The notes below the pieces were generated by a model. The model was given only the letters and a program-made list of their open reading frames with translations, was not told the origin of the DNA and made no database searches. A stretch of DNA of 12,468 nt from an uncultured Prosthecobacter sp. (GTDB lineage Bacteria > Verrucomicrobiota > Verrucomicrobiia > Verrucomicrobiales > Verrucomicrobiaceae): assembly GCA_937941745.1 (NCBI GenBank), contig CALDGV010000044.1:1-12468 (forward strand). The letters run 5' to 3'. This document shows positions 2,719 to 12,468 of the stretch, in pieces. The translations under genes and the position numbers were made by a program. Every line of letters starts with the position of its first letter. The first letter of the stretch is position 1.

Positions 2719-2758
2719 GATCAGCGACTGCCTTTTGGATGCCGCTCACGCTGGCGGC

Positions 2759-3994
2759 ATGTCCGGCATGCCCGACCTCAAACTCTGCTTTTTCATGTAC
2801 CTGCACCTCTTCTGCCTCTTCGGCCTGGCCGCCACAGCACAGGCCCTGACTCTCGACTTCACAGACATCGCCTCCCGCGTTCGATCGCACCATCCCTCGC
2901 TCAAGGCAGCCCGCCTCGCCATTGATGAAGCCCGAGGCCGGCAGCTCGGTGCGGGCAGGCTTGCCAATCCCTCCCTGGAAACGAGCTTCCAAAACGAAAG
3001 CCGCGTCAGCCCACGCAGCACGATTTTCTCCCTCGACCAGGCTTTTCCAGTCACCAAACGCCTGGGTCTGGAAAAAAAGCTCTCGGCGCAGCTCGTCCAG
3101 GCAGCTGAACTGGAAGTGCGGGATGTCGAGCGACGCATCATCGCTGAAGCCAGGACGTTCGCGGTTAAGCTGCTCGCACTGGAGCAGCATCTGACTTTGC
3201 ACCGCCAGCAGATGGAACTCGCGCGAAAGCTCTCCACCTTTGCGAAAGAGCGTGCAGCTGCAGGGGAGGTCTCGCCACTCGATGCCGCCCAGGCCCAGGT
3301 GAACCTTCAGCGACTCCTGCTGGAGACCCGCAAGATGGAAACCGAACGCCTGGGGTTGACTGGCTCCCTCCGGCCCATGCTTGGTATAGCAGCAACAGAC
3401 ACTGTCCAGCTCTCAGGCAGTCTGACGACCACAACCCTGCCTTCTGGCATGAACTGGCATCGCCGGCCCGACTACCTTCTGGCCAAGACCAAAAGCGAAG
3501 CCGCCCAGACTGAAGCAGACCTGGCAAGGGCGCGGCGCTGGCAGGACATGAGTGCGGGCTTCTTTGCGGCGCGCGAGCAGCAGGACGTGGCCGCACGCAC
3601 CACCGAAAAAACTGGATTCGTCGGCTTCCGAATCTCCATTCTCCTCCCTCTATGGAACCGCAACCAGGGTGAAATCGCCGAAAAGGCCGCCAGCGCTGAG
3701 CGAGCTCGGCTGGAAGAGGAGGCGCTGGCCTCGCAGATCACCAGCGAGGCGGACACCGCACGCCGCGAGATGGAAGCCAATGCTGCGCTGCTCCGCGAAA
3801 CCCGCGATCAGCTTCTGCCCCTCGTCATTGAGCAGACCACAAAGCTCGAAAAAGCCTATGAGGCCGGCCAGACGGATCTGCTCACCCTGCTTCGTGCCAG
3901 GGATCAAAGACTTGAACTGGAATCTGGCGCACTGGATGCCGCCCGAGACTTCCATCTGGCCCGCATCCGCTTCGAAGCCGCCACCTCACGTTGA
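2759..3994 (+). CDS. CzcC-type outer-membrane factor (TolC family)
   Basis: The 411-residue protein is the outer-membrane channel of a tripartite RND exporter. Residues 1-29 form a signal peptide ending ATAQA before LTLDF. The mature part is two alpha-helical OEP repeats with family hallmarks: HPSLKAARLAIDEA, LANPSLETSF, the FPVTKRLGLEKK turn typical of CzcC proteins, AAGEVSPLDAAQAQVNLQ, and the mirrored AYEAGQTDLLTLLRARDQ near the C-terminus. Length matches CzcC/CusC proteins, but no lipobox cysteine follows the signal. The frame opens at a TTG (2735). ATGs occur at 2759, 2768 and 2795; 2759 or 2768 gives a well-formed signal peptide, and 2759 is chosen with little to separate them. It lies between the His-rich protein and the DUF3147 gene, and export of divalent metal is inferred from the whole cassette. 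Confidence 0.88.
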   Translation: MSGMPDLKLCFFMYLHLFCLFGLAATAQALTLDFTDIASRVRSHHPSLKAARLAIDEARGRQLGAGRLANPSLETSFQNESRVSPRSTIFSLDQAFPVTKRLGLEKKLSAQLVQAAELEVRDVERRIIAEARTFAVKLLALEQHLTLHRQQMELARKLSTFAKERAAAGEVSPLDAAQAQVNLQRLLLETRKMETERLGLTGSLRPMLGIAATDTVQLSGSLTTTTLPSGMNWHRRPDYLLAKTKSEAAQTEADLARARRWQDMSAGFFAAREQQDVAARTTEKTGFVGFRISILLPLWNRNQGEIAEKAASAERARLEEEALASQITSEADTARREMEANAALLRETRDQLLPLVIEQTTKLEKAYEAGQTDLLTLLRARDQRLELESGALDAARDFHLARIRFEAATSR

Positions 3995-4013: not shown

Positions 4014-4364
4014 ATGACCTACTATCTGCTCAAGCTCTTTCTCTCTGCCGGAGTCATCGTTGCCGTCACGGAGATCGCCAAACGCAACAACGCTGCTGCC
4101 AGCATCATCCACTCCCTGCCGCTGACTTCACTGCTGGCCTTCGTCTGGCTTTATTTGGAGAACAAGGACTCCGCCCTCATCGGCCGACATGCCTTTGGCA
4201 CCTTTTGGTTCGTCCTGCCCACCCTGCCGATGTTTTTGATCATGCCCTGGCTGATCAAAAAGCTGGGCGGCTTCTGGCCAGCCCTGGGCGCAGGGATCGC
4301 ACTGACGATTGCGCTCTACTTTCTCACCATGGCCCTGCTGAAAAAGGCGGGCGTTGAACTCTGA
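4014..4364 (+). CDS. DUF3147 family four-helix membrane protein
   Basis: The 116-residue product is almost entirely transmembrane, with four predicted helices at about 4-20, 32-48, 62-80 and 87-108. Short charged turns separate them: EIAKRNN after helix 1, LENKDSALIGRH after helix 2 and IKKLGG after helix 3. The layout and phrases such as YYLLKLFLSAGVIVAVTEIAK, SLPLTSLLAFVWLY and FWPALGAG match my memory of DUF3147 proteins, which have no established function. The ATG at 4014 lies 19 bases after the outer-membrane-factor stop and the gene ends six bases before the adaptor, so it is inside the efflux operon. No Shine-Dalgarno is evident. A role in assembling the pump or moving metal across the inner membrane is possible, but nothing in the sequence proves it. 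The frame is open farther upstream, but that extension overlaps the channel gene out of frame and was rejected. Confidence 0.83.
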   Translation: MTYYLLKLFLSAGVIVAVTEIAKRNNAAASIIHSLPLTSLLAFVWLYLENKDSALIGRHAFGTFWFVLPTLPMFLIMPWLIKKLGGFWPALGAGIALTIALYFLTMALLKKAGVEL

Positions 4365-4370
4365 ATCATC

Positions 4371-5477
4371 ATGAAACCATTCTTGTTCTGCCTGTTTCTC
4401 AGCATTCAGGCCGCCGCCGCCACGCCAGACATCATCCTGGATGAAGTGGCGGTGGCCAACATGAACCTCGCTTTCGCCGAGGCGGAAGAGGCCACGTTTG
4501 AGGAGACGATTTTCGCTCTCGGCGGCATTGAGGTGCTGCCAGGGAAACGTGCGGTCGTCAGCAGCCGCATTCCAGGCCGCGCCTTCTCGGTGCTCGTCAT
4601 TCCGCATCAGGAGGTCGATGCCGGGGTGGAGGTCGCATGGGTCGAAAGCCGCCAGCCGGGCGATCCGCCACCGGTGGTGAAACTGGAAGCGCCCATTGCC
4701 GGCTTTGTGTCGAAAGTGAACATCGCGCAAGGCCAGCCGGTTTCACCAGATGACGCGCTGATGGAAATTCTCGATCTCAGCACCGTCGAAGCTGCAGCTC
4801 ATGTGCCGCAGCACCTGGCAGCAAAGTTGAAACTGGGTCAAAAGGCCCACATCCGCATTCAGGCCATGCCAGACAAGGTGTTTGAAGCAAAGCTCGCCCA
4901 CATCGCGGTGGAGGCGGATGTGACCACGGGCACCCTCGAAGCCGCTTTTCATGTCGCAAACCCCGAAAACGTACTGCGGCCGGGTATGAAGGCGGAGTTC
5001 AACATCGTCGTGAGCGAGCGGGAGAACGTGATGTCCATTCCTCGCAGCGCTTTGCAGGGCGATCCCGCTCAGCGTTTTGTGTATGTGAAGGACTACGAAT
5101 TGAAAAACGCCTTTGTGAAGGCGCCAGTCGTCCTCGGTGCCCAAAATGACCGCTTCGTCGAGGTCGTGAGCGGTTTGCTGCCCGGCGATGAGGTCGTCAC
5201 TCGTGGCGCCTATGCGCTTGCCTTTGCCGGCAAAGGCAGTGTGAGCCTCAAAGAGGCCATGGATGCCGCGCATGGCCATGCACACAACGAGGACGGCACG
5301 GAAATGACGAAGGAGCAGCAGGAAGCTGCGCACTCGAACCATGGTCATGATCACGACCACGAAGACGCTGAGAGCGACTGGAACACACTCACAACCTTTT
5401 TCGCCGCCACCAGTGGGTTGTTGCTGATGCTCCTGATCCTCACCGCCTTCAAACGCCGGGAGGTGCCGGCATGCTGA
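4371..5477 (+). CDS. CzcB-type periplasmic adaptor with His-rich tail and C-terminal TM anchor
   Basis: The 368-residue membrane-fusion protein should bridge the RND pump and the outer-membrane channel. Residues 1-17 are a signal peptide (AAAA before TPDI). The two lipoyl half-motifs are at about 66-91 (IPGRAFSVLVIPHQEVDAG) and 104-135 (KLEAPIAGFVSKVNIAQGQ). They are joined by only about ten residues (VESRQPGDPP), so the usual alpha-helical hairpin seems absent. Beta-barrel and membrane-proximal regions follow (about 138-290; LRPGMKAEFNIVV, IPRSALQ, VVSGLLPGDEVVTRGAYAL). The tail is unusual: eight His at 301-330, then a hydrophobic helix at about 340-360 and a positive KRRE end, implying a C-terminal inner-membrane anchor. 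It starts six bases after DUF3147 and overlaps the pump gene by seven bases (ATGCTGA). Adaptor identity is firm; the metal is not determined. Confidence 0.88.
   Translation: MKPFLFCLFLSIQAAAATPDIILDEVAVANMNLAFAEAEEATFEETIFALGGIEVLPGKRAVVSSRIPGRAFSVLVIPHQEVDAGVEVAWVESRQPGDPPPVVKLEAPIAGFVSKVNIAQGQPVSPDDALMEILDLSTVEAAAHVPQHLAAKLKLGQKAHIRIQAMPDKVFEAKLAHIAVEADVTTGTLEAAFHVANPENVLRPGMKAEFNIVVSERENVMSIPRSALQGDPAQRFVYVKDYELKNAFVKAPVVLGAQNDRFVEVVSGLLPGDEVVTRGAYALAFAGKGSVSLKEAMDAAHGHAHNEDGTEMTKEQQEAAHSNHGHDHDHEDAESDWNTLTTFFAATSGLLLMLLILTAFKRREVPAC
5457..5465 (+). promoter_or_regulatory. Strong Shine-Dalgarno for the RND pump gene
   Basis: GGGAGGTG at 5458-5465 places a GGAGG core seven bases before the pump ATG at 5471. 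It lies inside the adaptor reading frame, just before that gene's stop. It is the clearest ribosome binding site in the window; nearly all other starts here lack one. It suggests independent or re-initiated translation of the pump in addition to coupling through the seven-base overlap. Confidence 0.7.
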
Positions 5478-8400
5478 ATGCCCTCATCCGCTTCTCGCTG
5501 CATCACCGTCCGCTGATTCTGATGCTGGCGCTGGTGACGATGTTGTTTGGGTATCAAACGCTCATGCAACTGCCCGTCGAGGTGCTGCCTGACATGACCA
5601 AGCCCACCGTCACCATCTTGACGGAGGCACCCGGCCTTGCGCCGGAGGAGGTCGAAACACTCGTCACGCAGCCGCTCGAAAGCGCGGTGCAGGGTGTCGG
5701 AGGACTGGACCGCCTGCGCTCCAGCTCGGATGTGGGTCTGTCGCTCATCTTTGCGGAGTTCGGCTGGGGCACGGACATCTATCGCGCCCGCCAGCTCGTG
5801 CAGGAGCGCATGCAGGGTGTGCTCGCCATTTTGCCCGAGGGGGTGAAACCCGGCATGACGCCGGTTTCGTCGCTCATGGGCGAGATCTTGCTCGTGGGGC
5901 TGCGCTGCTCGATCAAGCCGGGCGAGCCAGGCCACGTCGCGCCGATGGACCTGCGCACACTGGCGGACTGGACGCTGCGGCGGCGGTTGCAGAGCATCAG
6001 CGGCATCGCCGAGGTGCTCACCATCGGCGGCGGGGTGAAGCAAATCCAGGTGCAGCCCGATCCTTACCGTCTGGCTGCGTTTGGCATCACCCTGGCGGAG
6101 GTGGAGGAGGCCGTGGGCCGTGCGGCGGGGAATGCCACCAGCGGCTATCTGCAAGCCGGGCCGCAGGAGATCATGGTGCGCAATCTCGGCATGACCACGA
6201 GCCTTGATGACCTGGCCAAGACCGTGATCAAGACCGTGGGCAGCCGCCCGGTGCTCATTAGCGATGTGGCGGAGGTGCGCCACGCCGTGCCGACCATGCG
6301 CGGCGATGCCAGCGTGAACGGCACGATGGGCGTGATCCTGAGCATTGATAAGGCGCCCGGCTTTGACACGCTGAAGCTCACCGAGCAGATCGAGGCCGCG
6401 TTGGAGGAACTGCGCCCCACGCTGCCGGAGGGTGTCACGGCCGAGGTGCTCTTCCGGCAGGGCGATTTTATCGAGCATGCCATCGGCAATCTGAAGGGAG
6501 CCATCCGTGACGGGGCCATCATGGTCACCCTCATCCTTTTCCTCTTCCTGCTCAGCCTGCGCACCACGGCCATCACGCTCATGGCCATGCCGCTGTCGTT
6601 TGCGGTCACGATCCTGACCTTCAAAGCCTTCGGCGTGAGCGTGAACTCCATGACGCTCGGCGGCCTCGCCGTCGCCATCGGCATGGTGGTGGACGATGCG
6701 ATTGTGGATGTGGAGAACGTCTTCCGCCGGCTGCGGCAGAACCAGGGCAAGCCGAAGCTCGAAGTGATCGCCGCCGCCTCAAGCGAGGTGCGGAACTCCA
6801 TCCTCTACGCCACCGTGCTCATCATCCTGGTCTTCCTGCCGCTGCTCGGCCTGGAAGGCATCGAAGGGAGGCTGTTCACACCGATCGCCATCGCCACGAT
6901 CACCAGCATGGCCGCGTCGTTTGTCGTCTCACTCACGGTGATTCCGGTGCTGTGCTCGCTGCTGCTGAAGACGGGTGGAAAAGCTCATGGCGATGGCTTC
7001 GTCGTGCGTGCGATGAAGTGGACCGTCGAGCGCACCTTCCTCAAGGTGGCGCTTGGCGCACCCATGCTCGTCCTGGCCTTTGCCGGCGTGCTGCTGATCG
7101 CCGCGCTGATGCTTTATCCGAAGATGGGCAAGGAGTTCCTGCCCGCCTTCAATGAAGGCAGCGCCACCATCTCGCTCGTCAGCGCTCCCGGCACCTCCCT
7201 GGCACAATCCAACGAAATAGGCGAGGTAGGCGTGCGCCTGCTGCAAGGCATCAAGGAAGTCAAAAGCGTGGGCCGCCGTGCCGGACGTGCGGAGCGGGAC
7301 GATCACGTCATGCCGGTGAGCGTGAATGAATTCGACGTGGAGTTTCACAAGACGGGCAGGCCGCGTGAGGTTGTCTTCGCAGAGATTCGCGAGCGGCTCT
7401 CCGGCATCCCCGGAACGTTTGTGAACGTCGGCCAGCCCATCGGTCATCGGCTCTCCCACATGCTCAGCGGCGTGTCCGCCAAGATCGCCGTGAAGATCTT
7501 CGGGGCGGACCTCGACGTGCTGCGGGAAAAAGGCGCGGAGGTCCGCGACCTCGGCCAGTCCATCCCCGGCCTCACCGATGTGAATCTCGAGGCGCAGGTT
7601 CCCATCCCGCAGATCAAGATCGAGGTGAACCGCGAGCGCGCCCTCGCCTACGACCTTCAGCCTGGCGACATCAACGAACAGGTTTCCACCCTGCTCGGCG
7701 GCAAGGTCATGACCGAGCTGCGCGAGGGCCAGCGCACCATGGACCTTGTTCTGCGCCTGCCAGAGGCATGGCGGGATTCGCCGGAGAAGATTGGCGAACT
7801 TCTCATCGAAACCCACAGCAGCCAGCTCATCCCGCTGAACCTCGTCGCCGAAATCCGCGAGGGCAAAGGCCCCAACGTCATCAATCGCGAAAACACCCAA
7901 CGTCGCATCGTCATCGCCGCCAACACCTCGGAACGCGATTTGGAAAGCCTGGTGCAGCAGTGGGAAAAGTTGGTGCGCGAGAAGGTGAAGCTGCCGGAGG
8001 GCTACTTCCTACGCTTCGAAGGCGAATTTCAGGCGCAGCAGGCTGCCGCCAGGCGCATCGCCTTCTACTTCGGCCTCGTGCTGGTGGCCATCACCATCCT
8101 GCTGCAGGGTTATTTCCGCAGCCTCTCGCTGGCGCTCCAGGTGATGCTGAACCTCCCGCTCGCGCTCATGGGTAGCCTCGCCCTGACGTGGGCGCTGATT
8201 GATAACATCAGCATCGCCACCCTCGTCGGCTTCATCGCCGTCGGCGGTGTGGCGGCGCGCAACGGCATCATGATGATCTCCCACTACCTGCATCTGATGC
8301 GGCATGAGGGCGAGACCTTCAGCCGCGCCATGATCGTGCGCGGCACGCTGGAGCGGCTCGTGCCCGTGCTGATGACCGCGCTCGCCGCAGGCATCGCCCT

Positions 8401-8575
8401 CATTCCGCTGCTGCTCGCCGCGAACGAGCCGGGGAAGGAAATCCTGCATCCCGTGGCCGTCGTCATCGTCGGCGGCCTCGTCAGCAGCACCCTGCTCGAC
8501 CTCATGGTCACGCCTGCCGTCTTTTACCTTTTTGGCCGCAAGGCCGCACTCAAACACATCCAAACCAGCCCATGA
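5471..8575 (+). CDS. CzcA/CusA-type heavy-metal efflux RND permease
   Basis: The 1034-residue inner-membrane pump uses the proton gradient to drive export of metal cations through the adaptor and channel. The fold is standard RND: TM1 at about 14-32, a first periplasmic domain opening LPVEVLPDMTKPTVTI, a TM cluster from about 340 to 500, TM7 near 535-555, a second periplasmic domain with VKIFGADLDVL at 674-684, a phrase typical of the heavy-metal branch, and a last TM cluster from about 860 to 1020. TM4 carries the proton-relay segment GMVVDDAIVDVEN with Asp408, Asp409, Asp413 and Glu415. C. metallidurans CzcA has DFGLIVDGAV there; its first relay Asp is Ala402 here, while the adjacent Asp pair resembles AcrB. 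The start overlaps the adaptor stop and its stop overlaps the next start (ATGA). Heavy-metal RND is sure; Zn/Co/Cd versus Cu/Ag cannot be decided. Confidence 0.94.
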   Translation: MLNALIRFSLHHRPLILMLALVTMLFGYQTLMQLPVEVLPDMTKPTVTILTEAPGLAPEEVETLVTQPLESAVQGVGGLDRLRSSSDVGLSLIFAEFGWGTDIYRARQLVQERMQGVLAILPEGVKPGMTPVSSLMGEILLVGLRCSIKPGEPGHVAPMDLRTLADWTLRRRLQSISGIAEVLTIGGGVKQIQVQPDPYRLAAFGITLAEVEEAVGRAAGNATSGYLQAGPQEIMVRNLGMTTSLDDLAKTVIKTVGSRPVLISDVAEVRHAVPTMRGDASVNGTMGVILSIDKAPGFDTLKLTEQIEAALEELRPTLPEGVTAEVLFRQGDFIEHAIGNLKGAIRDGAIMVTLILFLFLLSLRTTAITLMAMPLSFAVTILTFKAFGVSVNSMTLGGLAVAIGMVVDDAIVDVENVFRRLRQNQGKPKLEVIAAASSEVRNSILYATVLIILVFLPLLGLEGIEGRLFTPIAIATITSMAASFVVSLTVIPVLCSLLLKTGGKAHGDGFVVRAMKWTVERTFLKVALGAPMLVLAFAGVLLIAALMLYPKMGKEFLPAFNEGSATISLVSAPGTSLAQSNEIGEVGVRLLQGIKEVKSVGRRAGRAERDDHVMPVSVNEFDVEFHKTGRPREVVFAEIRERLSGIPGTFVNVGQPIGHRLSHMLSGVSAKIAVKIFGADLDVLREKGAEVRDLGQSIPGLTDVNLEAQVPIPQIKIEVNRERALAYDLQPGDINEQVSTLLGGKVMTELREGQRTMDLVLRLPEAWRDSPEKIGELLIETHSSQLIPLNLVAEIREGKGPNVINRENTQRRIVIAANTSERDLESLVQQWEKLVREKVKLPEGYFLRFEGEFQAQQAAARRIAFYFGLVLVAITILLQGYFRSLSLALQVMLNLPLALMGSLALTWALIDNISIATLVGFIAVGGVAARNGIMMISHYLHLMRHEGETFSRAMIVRGTLERLVPVLMTALAAGIALIPLLLAANEPGKEILHPVAVVIVGGLVSSTLLDLMVTPAVFYLFGRKAALKHIQTSP

Positions 8576-9012
8576 AAACCAAGCTCATCCTCCTCGCCAC
8601 TCTCATCACCAGCCTCGCTTTCAGCCATGAAGGCGTCGAACTCGGACCAAATGGCGGCCGCATTGTCGAGTTTAGTGACAACGAAACCCTGCACGGCGAA
8701 GTCACCGTCAAAGACGACACCTTTCACATCGCTGTGCTCGGCAAGGACATGAAACTTGTCTCCCTCGAAAAACAGTCCCTCACCGCAACGACGGGCGACC
8801 GCACCAAGCCGGTCAAACTAGAAGTCACGAAGGACTCGAAGGGCTTCATCATCCCCTTGGTGAAGGCCGGCGAATGGCTCATCCTTCGTTACAAAGACCA
8901 TGCTGAAGCCAAGGCCGTCACCGCCCGCTTTGAATACAACACCGCCACATGCGAAGAGTGCCAAGCTCAGGAGTGGCTGTGCAAGTGCAAGCCGGACACG
9001 GAGAAGAAATAG
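8572..9012 (+). CDS. Small exported protein with Cys-rich tail, cassette end
   Basis: The 146-residue product begins with a signal peptide (MKTKLILLATLITSLAFS). Cleavage after Ser18 would leave His19 as the new N-terminus, followed by EGVELGPNGGRI. The middle (about 30-122) looks beta-rich with alternating hydrophobics (LHGEVTVKDDTFHIAVLG, FIIPLVKAGEWLILRY). The C-terminus carries CEEC (127-130) and CKC (137-139), a plausible thiolate metal site. I recognise no named family, although small HEG/GPNGG-type periplasmic proteins occur beside heavy-metal RND genes. It starts inside the pump stop (ATGA), so it is co-translated and closes the cassette. A role in periplasmic metal binding, delivery or sensing is inferred. 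Its small beta-rich form invites comparison with the CusF metallochaperone, but I cannot align the two. Confidence 0.75.
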   Translation: MKTKLILLATLITSLAFSHEGVELGPNGGRIVEFSDNETLHGEVTVKDDTFHIAVLGKDMKLVSLEKQSLTATTGDRTKPVKLEVTKDSKGFIIPLVKAGEWLILRYKDHAEAKAVTARFEYNTATCEECQAQEWLCKCKPDTEKK

Positions 9013-9661: not shown

Positions 9662-10537
9662 ATGAAAAGCATGACCTCCGTCATTACAAAGTCGGCTATC
9701 GTTCTTGCGGCTTGCGCCAGCATGAACGCTTTCGCCGGCACCTCGAGCGGCAAGGCTCCGGCTCCCGCCCCGGAACCTGAGTCTGGCGCTCTGTTCGACA
9801 CCCTTGGCGCTACCCTGGAAGTGGGCTACGACACCCGCTACTACGATCGTGGCCTCTATCGTGCCGACAACACCGTCTGGACCGGCCTGAGCATCAATGT
9901 TCCTCTCACGGAGCAGCTCTCCCTCGGTCTCGGTGCTACCTACATCACCACCGTTGAGACCACTGGTCCTAGCGGCGGCCTCAACAATGGCGTGGGTGAC
10001 ATCGACTTCTCCGAGCTCGATCTCAGCGCCTCCCTGACCTATGACGCTGGCTTCGCCAAGCTGGGTCTGGTTTACACTCACTACGAATACTTCGACGCTT
10101 TCTCCGGCACCAGCTTTGGCGTTCCGGTGCGTGGCGGTGAAGGTGCCATCACTGGCGCTGACGAAGTGGGAGCAACCTTCTCCACTTCCGTTGGACCTGT
10201 GGACCTGTTCGGTGGTTACTTCTATAACTTCCGTATCGGTGGTTCCTACTTCGACCTGGGAGCTCGTCTTCCTATCGAAATCACACCTTGGCTGAGCATC
10301 GTTCCTGCCGTTCAGACTGGCTACGCTCTTGACTACTACACCAGTGGTCTCGTTGCTGCCAGCACCCCTAGCGGCTTCTCCCACGTTGTTCCGTCGATCT
10401 CCGCTCCGATCAAGCTGACCAAGACTGCAACGCTGACCCCCTACATTGCTTACAACATCTCCCTTGGCGCTCGCCACAGCCTGAACGCTCAGGACAACGA
10501 GTTCTTCGGCGGTGTGAAGCTTGGCGTGACCTTCTAA
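9662..10537 (+). CDS. TorF-like outer-membrane beta-barrel protein, paralogue 1
   Basis: The 291-residue protein has a signal peptide (about 1-25, ending NAFA before GTSSG), a Pro/Ala linker (KAPAPAPEPES) and then alternating aromatic/hydrophobic strands of a beta-barrel: LGATLEVGYDTRYYDRGLY, NTVWTGLSINVPL, LSLGLGATYITTVE, ASLTYDAGFAKLGLVYTHYE and others. It ends in GVKLGVTF, the C-terminal aromatic typical of Bam-assembled proteins. The YDTRYYDRG opening strand resembles TorF-family putative porins. It shares roughly 80% of residues with the gene at 11027; both are 291 residues. Codons end in T (GCT, GGT, CGT, GTT) more often than in the upstream genes, which together with a dedicated leader and strong terminator suggests high expression. 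The start follows an A/C-rich leader without Shine-Dalgarno. The transported solute is unknown. Confidence 0.85.
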   Translation: MKSMTSVITKSAIVLAACASMNAFAGTSSGKAPAPAPEPESGALFDTLGATLEVGYDTRYYDRGLYRADNTVWTGLSINVPLTEQLSLGLGATYITTVETTGPSGGLNNGVGDIDFSELDLSASLTYDAGFAKLGLVYTHYEYFDAFSGTSFGVPVRGGEGAITGADEVGATFSTSVGPVDLFGGYFYNFRIGGSYFDLGARLPIEITPWLSIVPAVQTGYALDYYTSGLVAASTPSGFSHVVPSISAPIKLTKTATLTPYIAYNISLGARHSLNAQDNEFFGGVKLGVTF

Positions 10538-10606: not shown

Positions 10607-11026
10607 GGCACTGACGATCCAGGCAAAAGAAACGATGAGTCCCACGAAATATGGGATGCACCATTTGAGGATCGAATCTGTGAACTTCATTTTTGTCTTC
10701 CGCAAACATCAGCATAGTTCGTGCCAGTTTTTGGAAATGATTTTCCAATTTATCGCCTGAACAAAACTAGGTGTGGACTGAGGCGTTCGTGACCGCATCA
10801 AAAGGTGAGGGTAGCCGAGTCACAGAACCCAAGACGATTCGACTGTGGCATGCTCTTGGTGAAAAAACGCCATGGCGTGCCGTCTTAGGAGCACCTGTTT
10901 AGCGCCACCAAGCTGATGTTTTCAACATCTTCAAAAAGTTGGCACCGCTCCTGCTACTTCATGTTGAGGCTCAGTGGTCTCCCGGACCGTTGGCCAAGCC
11001 ATCAACTAACCCAATTGAACCAACAC
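10607..11026. other. 420-base non-coding gap between the two porin genes
   Basis: No convincing gene is present. The visible structures are an inverted repeat TTGGAAA/TTTCCAA (10731-10737 and 10742-10748) in A/T-rich sequence, a perfect 12-base palindrome ACGCCATGGCGT (10867-10878), and GATGTT/AACATC (10915-10920 and 10924-10929). Next come TTGGCA (10939-10944) and the conserved leader block. A reading frame in phase with porin 2 opens at an ATG at 10916, but its 37 extra residues lack protein-like character and place the signal peptide internally. The gap is much longer than the others in the window and could hold distant regulatory sites or a small RNA; neither can be shown. Confidence 0.6.
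10976..10988 (+). promoter_or_regulatory. Conserved leader block upstream of porin 2
   Basis: GGTCTCCCGGACC is identical to the block at 9608-9620 and lies 38 bases before the porin 2 ATG, nearly the same spacing (41 bases) as in porin 1. It is preceded in both leaders by CTGCT and TTCATG and followed by an A/C-rich stretch with CAACTAAC. A GGTC/GACC stem is possible here too; GGCT (10968-10971) and AGCC (10997-11000) could form an outer stem. Confidence 0.45.
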
Positions 11027-11902
11027 ATGAAAAGCATGACCTCCGTCATTACCAAGTCAGCATTCATTCTTGCCACCTGCGCGACGATGAATGTATTCGC
11101 CGGCACCTCGGGCAAAGCTCCGGCTCCCGCCCCAGAACCGGAATCCACCGCCCTGTTCGACACCCTTGGAGCCACACTGGAAGTCGGTTACGACTCCCGC
11201 TACTACTTCCGTGGCCTTTGGTTTGCCGACAACACCGTCTGGACCGGCCTCAACATCAGCGTCCCGCTGACTGAGCAGCTGTCCCTCGGACTCGGTGCCC
11301 TTTACACCACCACCGTCGAAACCACCGTCCCAGACACCACCGGATTGAACAACGGTGTGGGCGATTTCGATTACTCCGAACTCGACCTCAGCGCCTCGCT
11401 CACTTACGACGCCGGATTCGCTAAATTCGGCCTGGTTTACACCCACTACGAATTCTTTGACACCTTCTCAGGCTCCATTTTCGGTGCTTCTGCTGGTGCA
11501 GGGGAAGGTGCCATCACTGGTGCTGACGAAGTGGGCGTGACCGTGGCTACCTCGGTGGGTCCTGTGAACCTCTACGGCGGATTCTTCTACGACTTCCGCA
11601 TTGGTGGTTCCTACTTCGAAGTGGGTGCTGACCTGCCCATCGAAGTCACTCCCTGGCTGAGCATCGTTCCTGCCGTCAAAGGCGGTTACGCGATCGACTA
11701 CTACACCAACGGCGTGAACGGCACCAGCACTCCTAGCGGTTTCACTCACGTCATCCCGTCGATCTCGGCTCCGATCAAGCTGACCAAGTCGGCCACCCTG
11801 ACGCCTTACATCGCTTACAACATCTCCCTTGGTGCCCGCCACAGCCTGAACACTCAGGACAGCGAGTTCTTCGGTGGTGTGAAGCTCGGTGTGACCTTCT
11901 AA
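11027..11902 (+). CDS. TorF-like outer-membrane beta-barrel protein, paralogue 2
   Basis: This 291-residue protein is the tandem paralogue of the gene at 9662. The signal peptide (to NVFA), the APAPAPEPES linker, the barrel strands (SRYYFRGLWFADNTVWTGL, ASLTYDAGFAKFGLVYTHYE, FRIGGSYFEVGADLPIEVT) and the terminal GVTF are shared. Differences cluster at strand turns: the position after TTVETT, the stretch around SIFGASAGAGEG, and NGVNGTSTPSG. DRGLYRAD in copy 1 is FRGLWFAD here. The ATG at 11027 was chosen over the in-frame ATG at 10916 because it aligns with copy 1, is directly followed by the signal peptide and follows an A/C-rich leader as in copy 1. Codon choice is more C-ending than in copy 1. 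Its separate terminator and long upstream gap imply independent regulation. The solute specificity is unknown. Confidence 0.85.
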   Translation: MKSMTSVITKSAFILATCATMNVFAGTSGKAPAPAPEPESTALFDTLGATLEVGYDSRYYFRGLWFADNTVWTGLNISVPLTEQLSLGLGALYTTTVETTVPDTTGLNNGVGDFDYSELDLSASLTYDAGFAKFGLVYTHYEFFDTFSGSIFGASAGAGEGAITGADEVGVTVATSVGPVNLYGGFFYDFRIGGSYFEVGADLPIEVTPWLSIVPAVKGGYAIDYYTNGVNGTSTPSGFTHVIPSISAPIKLTKSATLTPYIAYNISLGARHSLNTQDSEFFGGVKLGVTF

Positions 11903-12022: not shown

Positions 12023-12468
12023 CTACCAGTCCGTCACCGCGCCGTCGGGGCTGAACTCGCGCAGGACGATCTCTTGTTGGAAGGGATGTTTCTTCACCTC
12101 CGCCTCGTTGATGGTGATGCCAAGGCCGGGTTTCGTGTTCGGGCGGACGATGCGGCCTTTTTTCTCGATGATGAAGCCTTCCTCGACCACATCCTGCCGC
12201 CACGGCACGTCGTTGTGCACGGTTTCGCAGATGATGTAGCTCGGCTGGCTGAAACCGAACTCAAGCGACGCGGCGGTGCTCACGGGGCCCTGCGGATTGT
12301 GCGGGGCCAGAGCAATGCGATGCGCCTCCGCGAGCGCGGCGATGCGTTTGGCTGCGCTGAGACCGCCGCAGTGCGTGATGTCAAGCTGGCAGATCTCGAC
12401 CGCCCGTTTCTCGAACATGTCTTTGAAGGCCTCCAGGTTCGTCACGCGCTCGCCGCTGGCCACGGGCG
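12023..12468 (-). CDS. Enolase-superfamily sugar-acid dehydratase-like protein, C-terminal part
   Basis: The last 148 residues of a mandelate racemase/muconate lactonizing enzyme-type protein are encoded on the minus strand. The frame runs off the right edge of the window and stops at TAG (complement of 12023-12025). Visible superfamily features are ASGERVTN (metal-ligand Glu of the GER motif), [18 protein letters not shown] with the dyad Asp, [14 protein letters not shown] with the general-base His, and IICE with the later conserved Glu. The tail, [18 protein letters not shown], is the usual capping segment end. The pattern is closest to galactonate dehydratase-like (DgoD) members, but this superfamily changes substrate easily, so only dehydration or epimerisation of a sugar acid is proposed. 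It is convergent with porin 2, with 120 bases between the stops. Confidence 0.88.

Follow-up and report, generated by a model that had tools for sequence, protein, structure and literature searches.

The question raised by this locus is how the adaptor of a resistance-nodulation-division (RND) pump can serve an outer-membrane channel when the usual alpha-helical hairpin is missing and the protein appears to be anchored by its C-terminal end. The window, meaning the whole stretch of 12,468 nucleotides analysed here, comes from an uncultured Prosthecobacter sp., and the adaptor gene lies at positions 4371 to 5477 on the plus strand, as do all features of the operon described below. The open reading frame (ORF) is genuine and conserved, its coordinates are right, and Pfam, NCBIfam, an AlphaFold2 model and Foldseek together describe the 368-residue product (P0001) as a hairpin-less periplasmic adaptor of the heavy-metal efflux (HME) RND type. 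By its matches to Pfam (HlyD_D23, E 5.8e-25) and to NCBIfam (RND_mfp, TIGR01730; 130.5 bits against a curated cut-off of 94.9), the product is an RND adaptor, the best stretch of both matches being the second lipoyl half onward. The nearest relatives of the protein are found in Verrucomicrobiaceae.

The AlphaFold2 model of the adaptor (predicted local distance difference test, pLDDT, 86.1) contains no hairpin anywhere. The first lipoyl half (4548 to 4649, residues about 60-93, with model strands at 60-63, 69-74 and 87-93) and the second (4674 to 4775, residues about 102-135, from Pfam and the model) are joined by a short loop, ESRQPGDPPP (4644 to 4673, residues 92-101), in place of the hairpin, and the other three domains are kept; the stretch after the second lipoyl half, recognised by Pfam, NCBIfam and the model, extends from 4776 to 5231. 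This corresponds to the architecture of the BesA type, a term used here for an architecture and not for a clade. When the model was searched with Foldseek, the top three PDB chains were all BesA, a known hairpin-less adaptor. Alignment with relatives gives a linker of 14 residues, VESRQPGDPPPVVK, which follows residue 90 and leads to the second lipoyl half at 105. The same length was found in 61 of 62 hairpin-less rows, with 12 residues in L092, compared to 66-115 residues in 27 hairpin adaptors from the ten genomes that bear relatives (27 of the 30 loci L033-L062, the remaining three having no match to the clade profile). From the short gap between the lipoyl halves, the initial annotation had proposed that the hairpin was absent, and on this point model, linker alignment and Foldseek agree.

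Judged from conservation and motif counts, the loop ranks among the two best-conserved stretches of the protein and is no flexible remnant. Among 55 clade adaptors (L063 was left out as the same gene as L001), it reaches a conservation of 0.94, the mean of the core being 0.65. Three lists of 120 proteins each were also compared, being the best-scoring rows of 2962, 508 and 964 found with the window protein, with L087, and with L089 plus Legionella as the respective queries, and hence consisting of near relatives of those queries. The loop motif is present in 120/120 of each list.

The second distinctive region is the C-terminal tail. Eight His residues are located at 301, 303, 305, 321, 324, 326, 328 and 330, and only 2 of 5000 shuffled versions of the mature protein had at least eight His in 30 residues. 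A near-invariant HxHxH motif lies in SLKEAMDAAHGHAHNEDGTE (5244 to 5303, residues 292-311), the best 10-mer of which, KEAMDAAHGH, reaches a conservation of 0.95 and is the other top stretch beside the loop. AHGHxH is present in all 120 nearest relatives of the first list and in 0/120 of both other lists. It is followed by a variable linker rich in His, Asp and Glu (5304 to 5378, residues 312-336), with a conservation of 0.37 and pLDDT below 50 at 323-335; in the clade tails this linker varies, and the HxHxH motif alone is fixed.

Behind the linker, hydropathy, the model and conservation point to a transmembrane helix (5385 to 5450, residues 339-360, or 339-362 in the model, with pLDDT 89 for block 341-350 and 88 for 351-360). 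The top 19-residue hydropathy window is 342-360, with a mean of 2.09, and KRRE comes next. Hydropathy alone was discarded as too weak a proof, as 557 of 5000 shuffled mature sequences reached its maximum and composition alone gives the helix no significance; the assignment therefore rests on conservation and on topology as read from charge. The helix is found in 54 of the 55 clade adaptors, the exception (L022) running to the end of its contig, and its sequence conservation is only 0.45. Lys and Arg average 2.65 in a stretch of at most 10 residues behind the helix against 0.69 in the 15 before it, being more numerous after it in 50 of the 54 adaptors, equal in 3 and fewer in 1, and on this basis the basic tail KRREVPAC (5451 to 5474) is expected to be cytoplasmic. 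At the other end of the protein, sequence, regular expressions and a model helix at 2-13 indicate a Sec signal peptide, apparently cleavable and without a lipobox (4371 to 4424, residues about 1-18). Regular expressions detected AxA between positions 11 and 60 in 41 of the 55 clade adaptors, no lipobox in P0001 and a lipobox-like motif in 1 of the 55 (L020). The window adaptor therefore lacks N-terminal lipidation of the BesA type by its missing lipobox, and the view that the C-terminal helix is its sole recognisable anchor is supported. The initial annotation had described these eight His, the hydrophobic stretch and the KRRE with numbers that all hold, and the membrane anchor it placed at the C-terminus is borne out in the clade; none of the contrary findings it named (a hairpin elsewhere in the predicted structure, no C-terminal helix, or homologues with hairpin and no tail) occurs within the clade. 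Its word "reversed" overstates the case, since both chain ends of such adaptors would meet at the membrane-proximal domain (a domain described in PMC4446572), and a C-terminal anchor would be a small topological step.

Full-length relatives at E below 1e-100 number at least 28, in 24 of 288 Verrucomicrobiota genomes, with up to six best candidates scored in each genome; in a further 6 genomes the best match among these candidates lay between 1e-71 and 1e-42. Some match at 1e-15 exists in at least 194 of the 288, mostly to hairpin adaptors, the alignment then starting at residue 104. In a tree of 67 adaptors (249 columns with loop and tail excluded, quick search, midpoint root), the window type forms one clade, A, with a support of 100 in the Shimodaira-Hasegawa-like approximate likelihood ratio test. 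Clade A is nested among proteins with the loop SRxxGNPPP, class B (support for A and B together 87), and both stand apart from the IhpB-like hairpin-less proteins, class C, and from the hairpin adaptors. Presence of the hairpin changes at least four times on this tree, two of these changes being forced by the starred branches, and the tree gives no direction; hairpin-lessness is thus probably not of single origin.

The helix shows a different distribution from the loop. It is found in class A and in the class B members L087 and L090, and in the three lists it occurs in 120/120, 118/120 (the two without it being short proteins) and 0/120, respectively, the names in the third list including Legionella, Omnitrophica and Chlamydiae. 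Hairpin-less relatives without the helix include those of Legionella and Omnitrophota and the IhpB-like proteins. No C-terminal membrane helix was found in the 27 hairpin adaptors from the ten relative-bearing genomes; a hairpin HME adaptor of a Calothrix plasmid (L095, 4287-5984) ends in a hydrophobic segment (1.76) followed by an Arg cluster, and one of a Leptolyngbya plasmid (L094, 4308-5966) ends in a weaker segment (1.35) followed by Arg. Given these cyanobacterial proteins, anchoring by the C-terminus may be of more than one origin. Each trait is found without the other and the two are therefore separable, which rules out short loop and helix as one obligatory package and leaves the earlier suggestion that they belong together without support.

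The partner channel also departs from the usual pattern, at a single position. The gene order in the window is outer-membrane factor (OMF), small membrane ORF, adaptor and CusA/CzcA-type pump. An OMF was found upstream in 31 of 32 related loci, the one miss (L032) being cut by a contig end, and an RND pump downstream in 30 of 32, the misses (L022 and L028) being at contig ends. From Pfam, the model and alignment with OprM and SilC, the OMF of the window (2735 to 3994, start uncertain, modelled from 2795) has the TolC/CusC fold and standard size. Its model (pLDDT 86.9) has the usual fold of TolC, CusC and SilC and no unusual length, so the channel offers no compensation for the missing hairpin, and neither the OMF model nor the pump alignment revealed an enlarged partner that could make up for it. 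In the profile with OprM and SilC, R387 of the listed OMF ORF (codon 3893-3895) is aligned to OprM Asp 416 at the second periplasmic tip. This residue is given in a passage of PMC8277102 as the counterpart of TolC D374, in the Asp ring or secondary gate.

At this gate-aspartate column, the clade A channels (the window and the 28 of the 32 loci in which the frame is complete) are basic in 29/29, with 26 Arg and 3 Lys. The channels of class B carry 6 Gln and 1 Ile, and those of class C carry 2 Glu, 1 Asn and 1 Gly. Channels beside hairpin adaptors with linkers of 66-210 residues numbered 24, two from the same locus (L177); after exclusion of two without the tip region, they gave 10 Asp, 5 Glu, 3 Ser, 2 Gln, 1 Ile and 1 Met, and 0/22 basic residues. 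An acid at this column or at the other ring position was present in 2/29 of A, 3/7 of B, 4/4 of C and 20/22 of the hairpin-side channels. Pairwise identity among clade A channels falls to 24%, so that the Arg or Lys has been kept despite wide drift. The tips as such were considered and rejected as specially conserved regions: the top 10-mers lie elsewhere (LLPLWNRNQG, DFHLARIRFE), and what sets these channels apart is solely which residue occupies the gate position. The basic residue fits a pump that would need no hairpin for channel opening, the evidence being correlative. The non-standard channel contact inferred in the initial annotation finds backing in the conserved loop and in this altered residue.

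Taken together, we consider it fairly probable that this is an HME pump in which adaptor loops dock the channel, the gate is altered, and a C-terminal anchor carries the His segment. Six adaptors would ring the RND trimer through their usual domains, and six ESRQPGDPPP loops at the lipoyl tips, rather than hairpins, would contact the channel entrance. The channel would dock on or near the pump, at a shorter pump-channel distance than in AcrAB-TolC, and would open without being pried by hairpins. As no hairpin-like reach would be available to pull an acidic gate open, the partner channel would have lost that gate, with Arg or Lys at the gate-aspartate position. The C-terminal helix would take over anchoring from an N-terminal lipid or helix and position the His-rich segment next to the pump entry, at the surface of the membrane. 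Metal buffering, sensing or hand-over may take place there, which is the weakest point of the mechanism. The more demanding version couples hairpin loss to the rewiring of the gate, the loop being the docking element, an Arg/Lys ring opening without a hairpin, the pump being shorter than AcrAB-TolC and a tail-anchored segment collecting metal at the pump entry. This version is put forward tentatively and is possible at best; if true, these operons would be natural hairpin-minus, gate-changed pumps.

Several observations weigh against the docking mechanism as proposed. The loop motif is absent from L086 in the clade and from L088, L091 and L092 in class B, and the loop may be conserved for the sake of the lipoyl fold or of contacts between adaptors instead of channel docking. 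Of the 22 control channels, no more than 5 have an HME pump resembling that of the window as their neighbour (these carry Asp, Glu, Ser, Asp and Glu), and the other 17 adjoin pumps much less like it. The Arg or Lys of clade A may derive from one ancestral event. In class C, 2 of 4 channels beside hairpin-less adaptors retain Glu and all four an acid at a ring position, so hairpin loss does not force a change of the gate. Lastly, other metal adaptors of the phylum, with or without a hairpin, can have His-rich ends and yet no anchor helix, and an anchor is thus unnecessary for whatever such ends do.

Among the other explanations, the simplest is that this is one more hairpin-less adaptor of the BesA, Legionella or IhpB kind, with the tail as a decoration of the lineage that plays no particular part. 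It has some plausibility, although it is not expected to be correct: hairpin-less sequences were noted by Greene et al. in Borrelia, Treponema, Spirochaeta and Legionella, and several hairpin-less classes were found in the present comparison, whereas the strong conservation of loop and HxHxH down to 34% identity and the change at the gate position in the partner channels are not accounted for. It is also conceivable, but doubtful, that the helix chiefly docks on the membrane domain of the pump like a fused AcrZ, the His stretch being a mere hydrophilic spacer. The overlap of the adaptor stop with the pump start, the retention of the helix next to a variable linker, and the helix-bearing relatives of L087 that lack AHGHxH (118/120 and 0/120 in the best 120 of 508) would agree with such docking. 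However, the poor conservation of the helix suits a plain anchor better, and a spacer would have no need for HxHxH, the best-conserved stretch in the clade of the window.

In a further explanation, a hairpin-bearing adaptor encoded elsewhere shares the ring and contacts the channel in the ordinary way. The ten relative-bearing genomes are indeed rich in adaptors, with between 8 and 29 RND_mfp matches apiece (E <=0.001), and two-adaptor pumps offer a precedent, TriABC reportedly being an RND pump of this kind. Such a mixed ring is nevertheless unlikely, because the operon holds a single adaptor between its own OMF and pump, and a changed gate position would be unexpected if an ordinary hairpin still opened these channels. 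Quite improbable is a system with no tripartite bridge, with pump and adaptor confined to the inner membrane and periplasm and the OMF separate, as the loss of the usual physical link without enlargement of pump or OMF might suggest, given the same-family OMF upstream in nearly all loci and the conclusion, in work cited in PMC3807786, that BesABC with the same defect is a functional tripartite pump.

The gene content makes an HME-type tripartite pump the probable assignment of the operon, and the metal context named in the initial annotation agrees with the TIGR00914 pump and the OMF upstream. The pump (5471 to 8575, 1034 residues) scored 782.9 bits against a TIGR00914 cut-off of 701.45 and aligns with CusA from end to end; its start overlaps the adaptor stop in ATGCTGA (5471 to 5477). 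The Cu(I)/Ag(I) methionine triad of CusA, which we take to be M573, M623 and M672 and a mark of the CusA branch only, is replaced by Ser, Val and His at these presumed positions. This argues against a CusA-like pump for Cu(I)/Ag(I), and a divalent cation is the more likely substrate.

Smaller genes accompany the system. At the head of the operon, a probably secreted His/Cys-rich ORF (2281 to 2718) had a tblastn match in 19 of the 32 loci; its product, very rich in both residues, is a possible metal buffer or sensor. A small membrane protein between OMF and adaptor (4014 to 4364) was matched in 3 of 32, and a small, probably secreted protein directly after the pump (8572 to 9012), with the Cys-rich end CEECQ...CKCKP, in 21 of 32; no Pfam family exceeded its cut-off for either. 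Further along, 9662-10537 and 10916-11902 are tandem copies, 81% identical over 292 residues, from a local duplication; their products have a signal peptide, match no Pfam family and are probably outer-membrane barrels. The window ends on the minus strand in part of an enolase-superfamily protein (12023-12463; MR_MLE_C, 1e-31). Outside the window, one open frame in L173 (1460-6052), next to a hairpin adaptor, has matches to an RND pump as well as to an OMF and is possibly a pump-channel fusion.

The way in which adaptor hairpins bring in TolC-type channels and open them has long been disputed, as has direct contact of pump and channel, and BesA is a main challenge to the tip-to-tip model (PMC4446572). 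A second, comparative handle on this dispute, and a natural test case for the assembly of such pumps, is provided by a large non-spirochete clade that combines a fixed short loop with a pump and channel of ordinary size and a changed gate residue in the channel. BesA of BesABC from Borrelia burgdorferi (PDB 4KKS, 4KKT, 4KKU) is the best Foldseek match and likewise hairpin-less, with a loop of nine residues between its lipoyl halves. Its partner channel resembles that of the window in having an unusual gate, in passages of PMC4446572 and PMC8277102, the former terming the BesC gate disrupted. BesA itself is an N-terminally lipidated protein with a flexible loop in a multidrug pump, whereas the window adaptor has a C-terminal helix, a conserved loop and HxHxH beside an HME pump.

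IhpB (NCBIfam NF045680), of IhpABC from Bradyrhizobium, is by its NCBIfam name the adaptor of a divalent metal ion exporter and, like that of the window, of HME type. Its model runs through the window loop without hairpin columns (residues 20-283 to model 58-314 of 326), but the window adaptor, with 72.4 bits against a cut-off of 450, falls outside this equivalog. IhpB-like hairpin-less adaptors of Verrucomicrobiota (L098-L105), most with His-rich N-terminal regions and His-rich GHGH-type tails, have no terminal membrane helix and lie on a separate tree branch. The SRxxGNPPP adaptors of Legionella, Omnitrophota and Chlamydiota (P0244, P0252, P0326 and others) share the loop motif in 120/120 of the best rows and, in the two loci examined (L093, L136), the order OMF, adaptor, RND; unlike the window adaptor, all 120 lack both the C-terminal helix and AHGHxH. 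The HME adaptors CusB and ZneB possess the helical hairpin domain that the window adaptor lacks. SilB of Cupriavidus metallidurans carries, according to PMC4446572, a C-terminal metal-binding extension, but this is a CusF-like beta-barrel domain, compared to a disordered His/acid linker and membrane helix here. The anchoring passages of two adaptor reviews (one being PMC4446572) give N-terminal anchoring only, with C-terminal anchoring unmentioned in them, and none of the open-licence papers found in literature searches named, in its title or the start of its abstract, hairpin-less Verrucomicrobiota adaptors or a C-terminally anchored RND adaptor. With BesA and the sequences of Greene et al. 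known, the hairpin-less architecture itself is not new; the novelty lies in anchoring at the C-terminus together with a conserved loop and a different gate residue in the partner channel.
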